Positions 17,291 to 27,148 of a DNA stretch of 32,084 nucleotides are shown piece by piece; position 1 is the stretch's first letter, and the number at the start of each line of letters is the position of its first letter. Source of the DNA: Patescibacteria group bacterium. GTDB taxonomy: Bacteria; Patescibacteriota; Minisyncoccia; Phycocordibacterales; UBA12088. The position numbers and the translations under genes are program-made. The notes under the pieces are model-generated. The model made no database searches and was not told the DNA's origin. It saw only the letters and a program-made list of their open reading frames with translations. The stretch is from assembly GCA_015491245.1 (NCBI GenBank), contig WFWH01000041.1, forward strand, positions 1 through 32,084, written 5' to 3'.

Positions 17291-20940
<3,650 letters not shown>

Positions 20941-20957
20941 CGGCACATGTGGGTGTG

Positions 20958-20966
20958 TGCTATGCT
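20958..20966 (+). promoter_or_regulatory. Extended -10 of gatC, near-leaderless
   Basis: TGC-TATGCT ends 7 nt before ATG 20974, which places the transcription start at or next to the start codon. Confidence 0.55.
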
Positions 20967-20973
20967 CGTCTGC

Positions 20974-21270
20974 ATGATAGATGAGGCTACAGTACGACAC
21001 CTGGCGCACTTAGCACGGGTGGCACTGAGTGAGGAAGAGGCGGCAGCGTTGCGGCGCGATTGCGCGGCGGTACTGGAGTATGTGTCTGAATTGGCGCGCG
21101 CAGCGGTGGCGAAGGAAAAAGAAGCGCCACTTGATCTCGGCCCAGTGCACAATGTGATGCGGGAGGATGTTGTGGCATGTGAGGCGGATGTTGCTCCCGA
21201 AGTGCTGCTAGAGGCCGCGCCGGTGCGGGAAGGCCCCTATGTGCGTGTGAAAAAAATATTGGATGCCTAA
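20974..21270 (+). CDS. gatC: Asp/Glu-tRNA amidotransferase subunit C
   Basis: This 98-residue protein of typical GatC length wraps around GatA and GatB and stabilises the GatCAB complex. That complex converts Glu-tRNA-Gln and Asp-tRNA-Asn to the amide forms. The pattern is VRHLAHLARVALSEEEAAAL, then LEYVSELARA, and a C-terminal LGPVHNVMREDV with EGPYVRVKKIL, all characteristic. The frame is open from 20947, but ATG 20974 fits both the family start and the TGCTATGCT promoter. It is followed by gatA; gatB is not in the window. Confidence 0.93.
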   Translation: MIDEATVRHLAHLARVALSEEEAAALRRDCAAVLEYVSELARAAVAKEKEAPLDLGPVHNVMREDVVACEADVAPEVLLEAAPVREGPYVRVKKILDA

Positions 21271-21285
21271 GTAGTGGATGTACGT

Positions 21286-22704
21286 ATGACGGTGGGAGAG
21301 GTGCGAGAGAAGGTGGAGCGCCACGGCGCCCGCGCGGTCGCGCGGGATGCGGTTGCGGCTATCGCCGAAAAGGATGCGAAGGTGGGCGCTTTTTTGGAAG
21401 TGTTTGATGATGTACAGGCACAGGCGGACGCGGTGGACCGCCGCCTTGCTGCGGGGGAGCGCCTTCCTTTGGCGGGAGTACCCATTGCACTGAAAGACAA
21501 TATTTTGGTGCGGGGAAAGCGCGTGAGTGCGGCCTCGCGCATGTTGGAAGGCTACGTAGCGCCGTATGACGCGCACGTCGTGCGGCGCCTCAAGGAAGCG
21601 GGTGCCGTGCTCATTGGGCGCACCAATTGCGATGAGTTTGCCATGGGGTCATCCACAGAATATTCGGCGTTTGGCCCCACGAAAAACCCGCACGACCCCT
21701 CCAGGGTGCCGGGGGGCTCTTCCGGCGGATCGGCGGCGGCGGTTGCTGCGGGCATGGTGCCGCTTGCGCTGGGTTCGGATACGGGCGGCTCCATTCGCCA
21801 GCCCGCCAGTTTTTGCGGTGTGGTGGGACTCAAACCGACGTATGGTGCGGTATCGCGGTATGGGCTTATTGCCATGGGCTCTTCGCTGGATGTCATCGGG
21901 CCGTTTGCCGCTACGGTTGCCGATGTGGCACTGCTCTATCGCACCATCGCGGGCCATGATCCCTGTGACAGCACCTCGCTGCCGCCCGAGGGGCACCCCT
22001 CTCGCGCGCACCACGAGCGCACACACCCGCTGCGCATCGGCGTGCCGCGCGACTTGCTGGGCGAGGGTATGGATTCGCGTGTGGCACAGGTGTTTGAGGA
22101 AGCGCTTGCGGCACTCGCGCGTCGAGGGCACGAGGTGGTGGATATTGCGCTTCCTGCCGCGCGCCATGCGCTTGCGGTGTACTACATAATCATGCCGGCC
22201 GAGGCATCCACCAACTTGGCGCGCTATGACGGCGTGCGCTACGGTTTGCATGTGGAGGGTGCGGATCTGTGGGAAGATTATTTGCGCACGCGGCAAGAAG
22301 GTTTTGGTCCTGAGGTAAAGCGCCGCATTCTCTTGGGCACCTATGTGCTCTCCGCAGGGTACTACGATGCCTACTACCGCAAGGCGCAAAAGGTGCGCCG
22401 CGCCATACGGCGCGAGTTTGCCGCGGCATTTGCTACAGTGGACGTGATTGCTACTCCCACCGCACCGACTCCTCCCTTTCGCCTTGGGGAGAAGCGCGAT
22501 CCGCTCTCCATGTATCTTGCGGACGTGTTTACCGTGCCCGCGAACATTGCAGGCATACCCGCACTGTCCTTGCCTATGGGGAGTGTAGAAGAAGGCGGCG
22601 CTTCATTGCCGCTGGGAATGCAATGTATGGCGGCGCACAGGAATGAAGAAGTGCTGTTCCACATCGGCGAGGAGCTGGAAGCGCACCATGCCGCCTCCCG
22701 CTGA
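21286..22704 (+). CDS. gatA: Asp/Glu-tRNA amidotransferase subunit A
   Basis: This 472-residue amidase-signature glutaminase releases ammonia for tRNA transamidation. The catalytic triad is K70 (ALKDN), the cis-Ser S145 (GGSSGGS) and the nucleophile S169 (DTGGSIRQP), with the spacing of characterised GatA (75 and 24 residues). The C-terminus IAGIPALSLPMG is typical. I chose ATG 21286; an in-frame GTG at 21274, 3 nt after the gatC stop, is equally possible and adds four residues. The insertion around DSTSLPPEGHPSRAHHERTH (about residues 227-246) replaces the usual loop. It is coupled with gatC, and its presence suggests indirect Gln-tRNA and/or Asn-tRNA synthesis in this organism. High certainty. 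Confidence 0.95.
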   Translation: MTVGEVREKVERHGARAVARDAVAAIAEKDAKVGAFLEVFDDVQAQADAVDRRLAAGERLPLAGVPIALKDNILVRGKRVSAASRMLEGYVAPYDAHVVRRLKEAGAVLIGRTNCDEFAMGSSTEYSAFGPTKNPHDPSRVPGGSSGGSAAAVAAGMVPLALGSDTGGSIRQPASFCGVVGLKPTYGAVSRYGLIAMGSSLDVIGPFAATVADVALLYRTIAGHDPCDSTSLPPEGHPSRAHHERTHPLRIGVPRDLLGEGMDSRVAQVFEEALAALARRGHEVVDIALPAARHALAVYYIIMPAEASTNLARYDGVRYGLHVEGADLWEDYLRTRQEGFGPEVKRRILLGTYVLSAGYYDAYYRKAQKVRRAIRREFAAAFATVDVIATPTAPTPPFRLGEKRDPLSMYLADVFTVPANIAGIPALSLPMGSVEEGGASLPLGMQCMAAHRNEEVLFHIGEELEAHHAASR

Positions 22705-22721: not shown

Positions 22722-24095
22722 ATGGCAAAAGAAGGAGGGCCTGGACCATTGGACCCCGGGCATTGGACCACCGATCCGGTATCGGTAATTGCGGTACTGC
22801 TTTTCATTGGCGCAGTGGTCAATGCGCTGCTTTCCTCGATTGAGGCGCGCTTCGGTTTTGATCCCACCAATCCTTCGGGGCGCTACCCTCTCTTTGTCCT
22901 ACAGGAGTCCACGCCGCTCAAAACACCCGTGCGGGTGGTGGCAGAGGAAACCTCGGTGTATGCAACCGCAGGTGCACAGGCGGTGACGGTGGGCCGCCAG
23001 CGCCGCGGTGCGTGGGGCACATTGGCAGACGGCCCTCTGGTCCTTCAGGATGCCCAGTGGTGGAAGGTGGATTTTTTTGCCGGCGCCGACGGATGGGTGC
23101 CCGCGCGCGTGCTGCGTGGTGGGGATGCGCGGGCGCTTCTTACCGACCCCGTACCACCGGGTACGCGCGTAGCGGCTTCTTTTAATGACGTTGCGGTGTA
23201 TCCCTCGGCGGGCGGCGGCGCCGCGCGCGGCACCCAGAGCATGCGCGCGCGCGGGCGTGTGGTGGAAGGGCCGCTGATGGTGGGCGGCGCGCGTTGGTGG
23301 AAGGTAGATTTTGAGAAAGAACCTGACGGGTGGGTGGAAGAACGAAATCTCGAGCGTATCCGCCCTGCTTCCTTCACCTATCTCACCGCCGCCACGCCGC
23401 TTTCCTCCGCCGTACGCACCACGGTAGAAACGCCGCTCTACCGAGACCCGGGAAAGGGCATACTGGATTTTTTGGAGCAAGGGGTGCGGGGGGTACTCAC
23501 TGGGGGTCCCGAAGAGCGTGAGGGCATTACTTGGTGGCGCGTTGCATTCAGGGGCGGCAAAGCGGAGGGATGGCTTCCCGCTGCCACGCTAGAGCGTGTG
23601 TTGTTTCCACGTGCGCTTTCATCTTTGTCCAGCCTCAAGGTGTGGCTGTTCGCCCTCTCACTTGCGGCATCCGCCCTCCTGGCGGTATTCATTTTCGGGG
23701 TGTTGGTGCGGCTGGCGCGCGTGCGCCGCGAAGAGCTTGCGGCGCTATGGCGCGGTGCCCCTCAACAGCGTGGAGTGGAGCAGGATCCGCGCTGGCGGCA
23801 TATTGAAATGCTGATGCAGTCTGAGAACCCCGCCCAATGGCGACAAGCTATTCTGGAGGCGGACATTATTTTGGATGCACTCCTGACGAAAATGGGATAC
23901 CAAGGTCTGGGGGTGGGGGAAAAACTGCGCCAAATTGAGCGGAGTGACTTTTCCAGCATAGATGCAGCATGGGAAGCGCACCGTGTGCGCAACCGTATCG
24001 CCCATGAGGGAAGCGAGTTCCTCTTGACTAAGCGTGAGGCACAAAGGGTGCTTCAGCTATATCGCGCGGTTTTTGAAGAGTTTTTCTACCTCTAG
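22722..24095 (+). CDS. Membrane protein with three SH3-like repeats and a C-terminal HEPN-like domain
   Basis: This 457-residue protein of unknown function has a membrane helix at about residues 17-40. Three SH3-like repeats follow, at about 68-130, 145-210 and 228-290, each ending in a WWKVDF/WWRVAF strand and a GWV or GWL turn. A second helix lies at about 303-328. The cytoplasmic C-terminal domain (about 345-457) is helical: it starts WRQAILEADIILDALLTKMGYQG and contains VRNRIAHEG, with R423, N424 and H428. This fits the HEPN Rx4H motif with a polar residue after Arg, as in DUF4145-like proteins and many RNases. I recall similar C-terminal domains in Parcubacteria proteins. The topology suggests sensing outside and an RNA-directed or protein-binding domain inside. 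Nuclease activity is a guess. The gene is secure, with its own -10. Confidence 0.75.
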   Translation: MAKEGGPGPLDPGHWTTDPVSVIAVLLFIGAVVNALLSSIEARFGFDPTNPSGRYPLFVLQESTPLKTPVRVVAEETSVYATAGAQAVTVGRQRRGAWGTLADGPLVLQDAQWWKVDFFAGADGWVPARVLRGGDARALLTDPVPPGTRVAASFNDVAVYPSAGGGAARGTQSMRARGRVVEGPLMVGGARWWKVDFEKEPDGWVEERNLERIRPASFTYLTAATPLSSAVRTTVETPLYRDPGKGILDFLEQGVRGVLTGGPEEREGITWWRVAFRGGKAEGWLPAATLERVLFPRALSSLSSLKVWLFALSLAASALLAVFIFGVLVRLARVRREELAALWRGAPQQRGVEQDPRWRHIEMLMQSENPAQWRQAILEADIILDALLTKMGYQGLGVGEKLRQIERSDFSSIDAAWEAHRVRNRIAHEGSEFLLTKREAQRVLQLYRAVFEEFFYL

Positions 24096-24169: not shown

Positions 24170-24240
24170 AGCGGGGTAGAGAAGTAGTATCTCGGGAGGC
24201 TCATAACCTCCAGACGTGGGTGCAAATCCCACCCCCGCAA
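24170..24240 (+). tRNA. tRNA-Met(CAT), initiator-like, with unusual D- and T-loops
   Basis: The cloverleaf has anticodon CAT at 24202-24204 in the loop CTCATAA, anticodon stem GGAGG/CCTCC, T-stem GTGGG/CCCAC, and acceptor GCGGGG/CCCCGC. The first base (A) does not pair with its partner (A72), as expected for a formyl-Met initiator. Oddities: the D-loop is only 7 nt and lacks the G18-G19 pair, and the T-loop reads TGCAAAT, with G instead of T at position 55. These are the two sides of the usual D-loop/T-loop contact. No CCA is encoded. It could be a functional, reduced initiator or a degenerate copy; the complete promoter argues that it is expressed. Confidence 0.8.
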
Positions 24241-24258
24241 CAAAGAAAGCGTGACACG

Positions 24259-24290: not shown

Positions 24291-24459
24291 TGCAGGTCGC
24301 GGGAAGGGATGGTGGGGATAACGGTATTTGCCCCTTCCACAGGGGTATGCCATGCTTACAAATACGGGGTTCAGCGCCCTCGCACTTCGTGCGAGCGCAC
24401 TGGCATTACTCATTAAACACATTACGGCGGTTCGCTTCTGCGGGTCCGAAAACCGAATT

Positions 24460-25131
24460 ATGAAGCGAAAAAATTACACGGCATTCTTTGCTGGAGCGCT
24501 TTTTGCGGCTCCTTTGTTTGCAGTGGCCACCTTTGCGTTTGGGCAGGTACATGCGGACGCGAGTGCGGGCGCAGCTTCTGCTTCCGCTGCGAGTGTTACG
24601 GCAGTGCCCGTTACTATGACGGACCGGCAGCGCGACGCGTTGATCCGTAGCTTGATGGCGCGTGTGCAAAAATTGGAGCGGCGTGTGGTACGGCTGGAAA
24701 ACCTATTGAAAGCGCGCACCGGCGCCACCCCCCTTCCGAGGCCGCTCCCTTTCAAAGAGCCCGAAGACATGCAAAAGTTCAAGAAGCGGCTCCATGACCA
24801 GGGTAGCGGCAATATTCGCGTGTGCCATGCGGGAGACGGCGCAGATATGACACTGCGGGTCAATATTGCCGCCATGAAGGCGCATCTCGGCCACGGTGAC
24901 ACGTTGGGCGTGTGCGGATCCGGTCAGTTCAATGAGGTGCTTAAGAAACTATTGGAAAGGAAAATGACGAAGATGCAGGAAGCATATCTCGATCATTTGG
25001 ACGACGAAGAGGACGCGGGCGACGATGATGACGAAGATGATGACGATGATAACGGCGAACGCGACGATCGGGATGAGGAAGACGGTGACGTTGATGATAG
25101 CGCGGGTACTGCTGGTTCTAATAGCTCATAG
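24460..25131 (+). CDS. Secreted protein with coiled coil, a CH...HLxHGDxxGxC domain and an acidic tail
   Basis: This 223-residue protein has a signal peptide (KRK then a hydrophobic stretch, about residues 9-28, with a probable cut near VHA-D), an Ala/Ser linker and a coiled coil (about 55-87). A small domain follows with VCHAGDG (C122, H123), then AHLGHGDTLGVC (H142, H145, D147, C152). This pattern matches the extracellular module I know as xICHxP...HLxHGDxxGxC, found in many surface proteins of Bacteroidetes and CPR; its function is not established and metal binding is plausible. The last 45 residues are almost all Asp/Glu/Gly. The frame is open from 24328, but ATG 24460 directly precedes the signal peptide. 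Secretion is confident; the role is unknown. Confidence 0.75.
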   Translation: MKRKNYTAFFAGALFAAPLFAVATFAFGQVHADASAGAASASAASVTAVPVTMTDRQRDALIRSLMARVQKLERRVVRLENLLKARTGATPLPRPLPFKEPEDMQKFKKRLHDQGSGNIRVCHAGDGADMTLRVNIAAMKAHLGHGDTLGVCGSGQFNEVLKKLLERKMTKMQEAYLDHLDDEEDAGDDDDEDDDDDNGERDDRDEEDGDVDDSAGTAGSNSS

Positions 25132-26626: not shown

Positions 26627-27148
26627 ATGAACACCAAATTACTTATTGGCGGTATAGTGGTACTCGCCGGAGTTTTGGTCGTGTTCTTGTGGTTGCGCAG
26701 CAGCCAGGAAATGCCTGCCACCGTTGATGCGCCAACTGGCGTTCCTCCTGCGCCCGCAGCGCCTCCTGCGCAACAATCTCCGACGGCCACCCAAGCGCAA
26801 AGCGCCTCCACACCGGTCGCGGATGAAACAGACCCCTCTCCTGCAGCTTCTCCTGCTGCTGAGACGTCTTCCCAAAAGACCTTTAACATCACTGGACGCA
26901 ACTTCGCATTCTCCCTGCAGGAGATTCGCGTGAAAAAGGGTGACACCGTCACCATCAACTTTTCTTCCGTGGAAGGATTCCATGACTTCACCATTGACGA
27001 ATTCAACGCGCGCACTGAACGGGTCCAAGCAGGCCAGTCAAGCTCGGTGACGTTTGTGGCGGACAAAGCAGGTACGTTTGAGTATTACTGCTCCGTGGGA
27101 AGCCACCGCGCGCTGGGCATGGTGGGGCGACTCATTGTGGAAGAGTAG
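26627..27148 (+). CDS. Membrane-anchored cupredoxin (blue copper protein)
   Basis: This 173-residue protein has an N-terminal membrane anchor (about residues 5-23), a Pro/Ala/Ser/Thr-rich linker (about 28-82), then a cupredoxin domain. The type 1 copper ligands are complete: H119 (GFHDF), C155, H160 and M165 (YYCSVGSHRALGM). It should carry a copper ion and move electrons, or buffer copper, outside the membrane. No oxidase or reductase partner is in the window. It lies upstream of a small membrane peptide and a ZIP transporter. A strong terminator follows. The start is ATG 26627, on its own -10. The fold and copper site are confident; the partner is unknown. Confidence 0.92.
   Translation: MNTKLLIGGIVVLAGVLVVFLWLRSSQEMPATVDAPTGVPPAPAAPPAQQSPTATQAQSASTPVADETDPSPAASPAAETSSQKTFNITGRNFAFSLQEIRVKKGDTVTINFSSVEGFHDFTIDEFNARTERVQAGQSSSVTFVADKAGTFEYYCSVGSHRALGMVGRLIVEE

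Follow-up and report, generated by a model that had tools for sequence, protein, structure and literature searches.

HEPN RNases are best known for their roles as toxins and defense effectors, and IRE1 joins an outer domain, a transmembrane (TM) helix and an inner RNase. The KEN domains of IRE1 and RNase L are HEPN-type RNases, the HEPN RNase site carries an Rx4-6H signature with N, D or H following the arginine, and DUF4145 has been recorded in Firmicutes in fusion with a TM segment and an SH3 domain (PMC3710099). RNase Y has its cytosolic RNase held by one membrane anchor (PMC7029143), and a tRNA amidotransferase with a lineage-specific component that associates with membranes is known from yeast mitochondria, where GatFAB contains GatF (PMC4027206). 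Protein families enriched in CPR bacteria are largely membrane proteins and poorly annotated (PMC6744442); the HEPN family described here may well be one of them, as yet without a name.

We have analyzed a gene on a 32,084-nucleotide stretch of DNA from a Patescibacteria group bacterium (the window; contig WFWH01000041.1 of assembly GCA_015491245.1). The explanation that we favor, to which we give a probability of about 0.4, is that its product is a HEPN protein, tethered to the membrane and facing the cytosol, that binds RNA, probably cleaves it and would act on tRNA beside GatCAB; put more generally, an undescribed core gene probably handles RNA at the membrane. This reading builds on what computation reveals about the fold, the RNxxxH motif and its conservation, the topology, and the co-location with gatC-gatA, joined in other lineages by gatB.

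The open reading frame is complete, running uninterrupted from ATG to stop over 457 codons (Table 1). Hydropathy locates the two membrane helices that had been proposed from the sequence, and they flank three repeats spaced at about 79 residues whose pairwise local scores (122, 97 and 67) were each equaled by 0 of 1000 shuffles. The SH3 identity of these repeats is weaker than the repeats themselves, being based on sub-threshold matches to SH3_3 (PF08239, bacterial SH3; 24.1 bits and E 4e-5 for the 457-residue protein, 22.4 and 20.3 bits in relatives, against a cut-off of 27 bits) and on WWxV...GW signatures; Tudor_5 passes its cut-off in one relative. Charges flanking the first TM helix are uninformative for topology, whereas counts across homologues place more positive charge after the last TM helix than before it in 106 cases versus 20 with the opposite bias, which argues that the HEPN domain is cytosolic and the SH3-like repeats lie outside. 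The original prediction of three outside SH3-like repeats therefore stands as to their number and their side of the membrane, but the SH3 profile stays below its cut-off; the proposed linkage of a cytosolic HEPN domain, through the second helix, to an outer SH3-like region is borne out by the charge bias and the repeat statistics.

Table 1. Features of the locus, in window coordinates.
Feature	Coordinates	Strand	Basis
ligA, NAD-dependent DNA ligase	18898..20940	+	neighbor cluster mostly at -3; name by sequence reading
gatC	20947..21270	+	neighbor cluster at -2 in 88/117 order loci; name by sequence reading
gatA, amidotransferase subunit A, 17 bp upstream	21274..22704	+	PF01425, E 4e-159
Whole gene: two-helix membrane protein, SH3-like ectodomain and predicted cytosolic HEPN domain	22722..24095	+	ORF; homologues; order-wide conservation
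TM helix 1, residues 22-40	22785..22841	+	hydropathy
SH3-like repeat 1, residues 64-141	22911..23144	+	repeat alignment, shuffles; SH3_3 sub-threshold
SH3-like repeat 2, residues 142-220	23145..23381	+	repeat alignment, shuffles
SH3-like repeat 3, residues 221-300	23382..23621	+	repeat alignment, shuffles
TM helix 2, residues 311-329, conserved anchor just ahead of the cytosolic domain	23652..23708	+	hydropathy; positive-inside rule, 144 homologues
Predicted HEPN domain, residues 347-457	23760..24092	+	AF2 pLDDT 92.5; structural re-alignment
R423-N424-x3-H428 motif	23988..24005	+	sequence, conservation
tRNA-Met (CAT), initiator-like by reading	24170..24241	+	ARAGORN; same place in 53/111 order loci

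An AlphaFold2 (AF2) model of the C-terminal domain built from 77 sequences (pLDDT 92.5, pTM 0.84) predicts helices at positions 10-19, 24-44, 52-57, 67-86 and 91-107 of the domain, with the RNxxxH motif at 77-82 inside the fourth of these. Foldseek alone returned no match for this model at E < 0.001, so that the HEPN assignment rests on re-alignment of the Foldseek candidates with VIA-align, on the motif and on weak profile matches. In the re-alignment, HEPN-fold proteins fill all of the top 25 PDB rows at Z 9.9 to 7.0 (MntA-HepT 9.9, Thermus HepT-like 9.5, HEPN-MNT 8.7, Csm6' 8.6, AF0298 8.5, TM0613 7.0) and the first unrelated row follows at 6.6, values that are not decisive alone, given that a Z below about 13 can be background for helical bundles; the best structural match, 6m6u (MntA-HepT), aligns 105 residues at 3.2 A. 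Profile matches among family members are weak and sub-threshold yet consistent: HEPN_Swt1 recurs in 37 of 58 members, DUF4145 reaches 1.4e-5, the RiboL-PSP, Cthe2314 and pEK499 HEPN models also appear, and the match of one member to DUF4145, which spans positions 9-87 of the 88 in the profile, scores 23.0 bits where the cut-off is 23.1. The window protein gave no DUF4145 (PF13643) match at E up to 1 in the Pfam profile search, a PDB sequence search returned nothing meaningful, and hhalign comparisons with small sets of HepT and DUF4145 sequences from CPR genomes gave low probabilities. A four-helix bundle unrelated to HEPN, in which RNxxxH had arisen by chance, would fit the Foldseek and hhalign outcomes as well as the low Z values; we consider this highly improbable in view of the step from 25 HEPN-fold rows down to unrelated bundles, the recurrence of several independent HEPN Pfam models among the weak matches and the conservation of the motif. 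The C-terminal domain is thus predicted to adopt a HEPN fold, as had been suggested from its sequence.

The motif itself, RNRIAH beginning at residue 423, places R423, N424 and H428 exactly where the original prediction had them and agrees with the Rx4-6H signature with a polar residue after the arginine. Since 2.3% of shuffles of this domain also produce R[NDH]x3H, the motif alone is weak evidence; we count it as real because 57 of 58 domains from homologues in the same order retain all of R, N and H, as do 53 of 59 homologues in a sample drawn largely from other parts of the phylum. Neither of the outcomes that would have told against the HEPN proposal, a different fold or a lack of conservation at R423 and H428, was encountered. 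A 39-row full-length alignment further reveals invariant positions at W358, W373, E379, D381, L384, G395, A416, W417, H420, R423, N424, A427, H428, G430, F451 and E453. Of these, D381 and H420 are conserved equally to, or more than, the triplet and outlast it where the motif decays. Such decay is seen in six loci of the wider phylum and in genus g4, which belongs to the same family as the window genome; all of these keep the gene and its position; in two loci of that sister genus (L052:5185-5958 and L314) the gene still stands behind gatA with a decayed motif and no SH3 repeats. The persistence of the gene in clades that have lost the motif implies that catalysis is not its sole function, and a catalytic role is likely in most lineages. 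These same members, together with the conservation of D381 and H420, would suit a non-catalytic membrane scaffold in which the HEPN fold positions an RNA or protein partner at the membrane and RNxxxH forms a binding surface, a reading that we hold to be unlikely because at least about 90% of members keep R, N and H jointly, as is usual for an active site.

A further aspect concerns the ectodomain, on which the idea of a one-protein device coupling an envelope signal to RNA cleavage or binding depended. Most members of the family are only about 130-250 residues long and carry a membrane anchor alone; those outside the order are mostly of about 130-200 residues with one N-terminal TM helix followed by the HEPN domain, the N-terminus being weaker or amphipathic-looking in 12 of 46. 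SH3-like repeats occur in approximately 16 of 111 order rows and the ectodomain is absent from most homologues. On the domain tree, where many forks are unsettled, the SH3 label requires 11 changes, at least three of them forced by well-supported branches, which indicates that the ectodomain has been gained or lost repeatedly; such repeats recur as an ectodomain particular to certain lineages. An IRE1-like sensor-effector, in which the SH3 ectodomain would sense the state of the envelope and switch RNA cleavage in stress, defense or growth arrest, suits the topology of the SH3-bearing lineages and finds some encouragement in one other member (L046:6217-7590) that carries bacterial TSP3 repeats (E 3.9e-17) in place of the SH3-like region; against it stand the many homologues with no ectodomain at all and the core chromosomal nature of the gene, and we regard it as quite improbable for the window protein and reject it as a general role of the family. 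The toxin-antitoxin or defense reading was likewise rejected: this is a normally single-copy chromosomal gene behind gatA that matches no PADLOC anti-phage defense model, profile searches found no HepT (PF01934) match in the protein or in the window genome, the recurrent neighbors are gat genes with no toxin-antitoxin partner among them, and the plasmid, phage and viral-contig collections contain no homologue.

The HEPN genes form a chromosomal core family in Patescibacteria, near-constant in one order and common across the phylum. A single-sequence search detected the gene in 86 of 98 relatives, and a profile search in 231 of the 379 genomes sampled across the phylum. In the contig search of a genome collection the lone protein query found nothing and the alignment query 561 loci, and the 80 of these that were listed are named as Patescibacteria, as its subgroups or as bacterial MAGs. 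The gene is normally single-copy; two matches were also seen in several other genomes of the phylum, and one locus (L207:8643-9275) has a second HEPN-derived paralogue two genes after gatB that lacks RNxxxH and bears C-terminal TM helices. Within the order, 87 of the 98 genomes yielded gatA and 85 of these 87 also yielded the HEPN gene, the two exceptions being G005, a genome of genus g4 with a motif-less homologue directly behind gatA, and G025, whose sequence ends soon after gatA. Ten order genomes lack both genes; several of them are near-complete and in few contigs, eight retain gatB and none has a glutaminyl-tRNA synthetase (GlnRS) above cut-off. This joint absence (Fisher p 5e-11) was set aside as evidence of functional linkage, given that loss of the block and an assembly gap across a linked block cannot be distinguished.

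The gene is part of the gatCAB operon. Upstream, on the same strand and within 1 kb, gatA is found in 117 of 120 order loci (within 60 bp in 106), usually preceded by ligA and gatC, and gatB lies elsewhere in the genome; among 49 loci from elsewhere in the phylum, 41 have gatA upstream, 27 have gatB downstream and 24 show the full arrangement gatA-HEPN-gatB. The gaps that separate the HEPN gene from gatA and gatB cluster near zero, many of the genes overlapping by 1 or 4 bases, and the gene is probably co-transcribed with the gat genes. No fusion of the HEPN domain to a Gat subunit was seen among the homologues. The first same-strand tRNA gene within 400 bp downstream has a CAT anticodon in 53 of 111 order loci and in 6 of 46 wider loci, that is, in all 59 loci with such a tRNA gene, and many of these tRNA(CAT) genes read as initiator-like. 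A profile search of the window genome found no GlnRS above cut-off, and GatCAB is presumably essential there. Taken together, the gatCAB operon and the tRNA(CAT) context point to tRNA biology or to a core housekeeping role.

Several loci depart from this arrangement. In three of them the HEPN gene sits away from gatCA, between a PH-domain-like membrane gene and gatB, possibly with a coaE-like gene intervening (names by reading of the sequence). Further along the window, reading alone suggests a protein that carries a long tail of acidic Asp/Glu residues at 24328-25131 and a small membrane-anchored cupredoxin-like protein at 26627-27148. Among 20 sampled gatB regions, 18 of them from genomes in which no HEPN gene was detected, several read gatC-gatA-gatB and several hold unrelated membrane or envelope genes in the HEPN slot, VirB2/TrbC-like ones included; four loci from families without the HEPN gene have what reads as a small VirB2/TrbC-like membrane gene between gatA and gatB.

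That the slot is not exclusive to the HEPN gene, along with the conserved RNxxxH and membrane anchor, would be expected of a general membrane-tethered HEPN endoribonuclease that turns over mRNA or rRNA much as RNase Y does, with adjacency to gatCA as an inherited operon arrangement and no partnership; this reading is possible though doubtful, since gat adjacency is kept over many families with gaps that resemble those of translational coupling. A Gat partnership is plausible. Its strongest form, in which tRNA-dependent amidotransfer in many Patescibacteria would have its own membrane-anchored HEPN component, tying GatCAB to the inner membrane and cleaving or sequestering tRNA, for instance mischarged or surplus tRNA, as the quality-control RNase of the gatCAB operon, strikes us as doubtful. 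The gene has the location in the gat operon that a GatCAB component should have, but it is not present wherever gatCAB occurs (231 of 379 genomes, versus gatB in 363 of 379).

We therefore return to a membrane-tethered HEPN protein that acts on tRNA beside GatCAB. The window protein would represent, in Paceibacteria, a core protein that is widespread in Patescibacteria, its anchor holding the HEPN domain at the cytosolic face and the outer SH3-like region being an addition of this lineage; the SH3 repeats probably serve, in some lineages, just to hold the protein at the envelope. The HEPN domain would dimerize, as HEPN proteins do, and bind RNA at the membrane; metal-independent cleavage of that RNA through R423, N424 and H428 may follow in most lineages. 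Its substrate would be tRNA, with a putative role in charging, quality control or turnover.

In the literature that we could cover, we found no paper linking HEPN with GatCAB and none describing a HEPN family of the gatCAB operon; the sole paper found to join Patescibacteria and HEPN concerns archaeal immunity. What is new is not HEPN itself, which is known, but the phyletic, membrane and operon context of one HEPN family. If the favored reading holds, this would be a rare housekeeping HEPN, near-constant in an order, common across a phylum, membrane-bound and lodged in the gatCAB operon, and one of the many unexplained CPR membrane protein families would gain a function. The proposal is directly testable on a soluble domain of about 110 residues, and genome-wide transposon data exist for a Saccharibacterium (PMC10633639).

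When set against the described systems, DUF4145 (PF13643, of the HEPN clan) is the closest family by sequence, the best member falling just short of its cut-off, and the Firmicutes fusions provide a precedent for the architecture. The window protein nevertheless lies under that cut-off, and the present family consists of single-domain membrane proteins in the gatCAB operon, unfused to nucleases or helicases. With HepT and MntA-HepT it shares the closest structural match and the R-N/D-x3-H type of motif, and it differs from them as a membrane-bound core gene that has no nucleotidyltransferase antitoxin among its recurrent neighbors. Unlike IRE1 and RNase L, it has no kinase domain, and its ectodomain is dispensable in the family. 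The likeness to RNase Y lies in a single membrane anchor with a cytosolic domain, here a predicted RNase, although the catalytic domains are unrelated and catalysis by the HEPN protein is a prediction. GatF, finally, is the precedent for a lineage-specific, membrane-associated component of this kind, the physical association of the HEPN protein with Gat being putative; GatF replaces GatC, whereas here gatC is present and the HEPN gene is the additional one.
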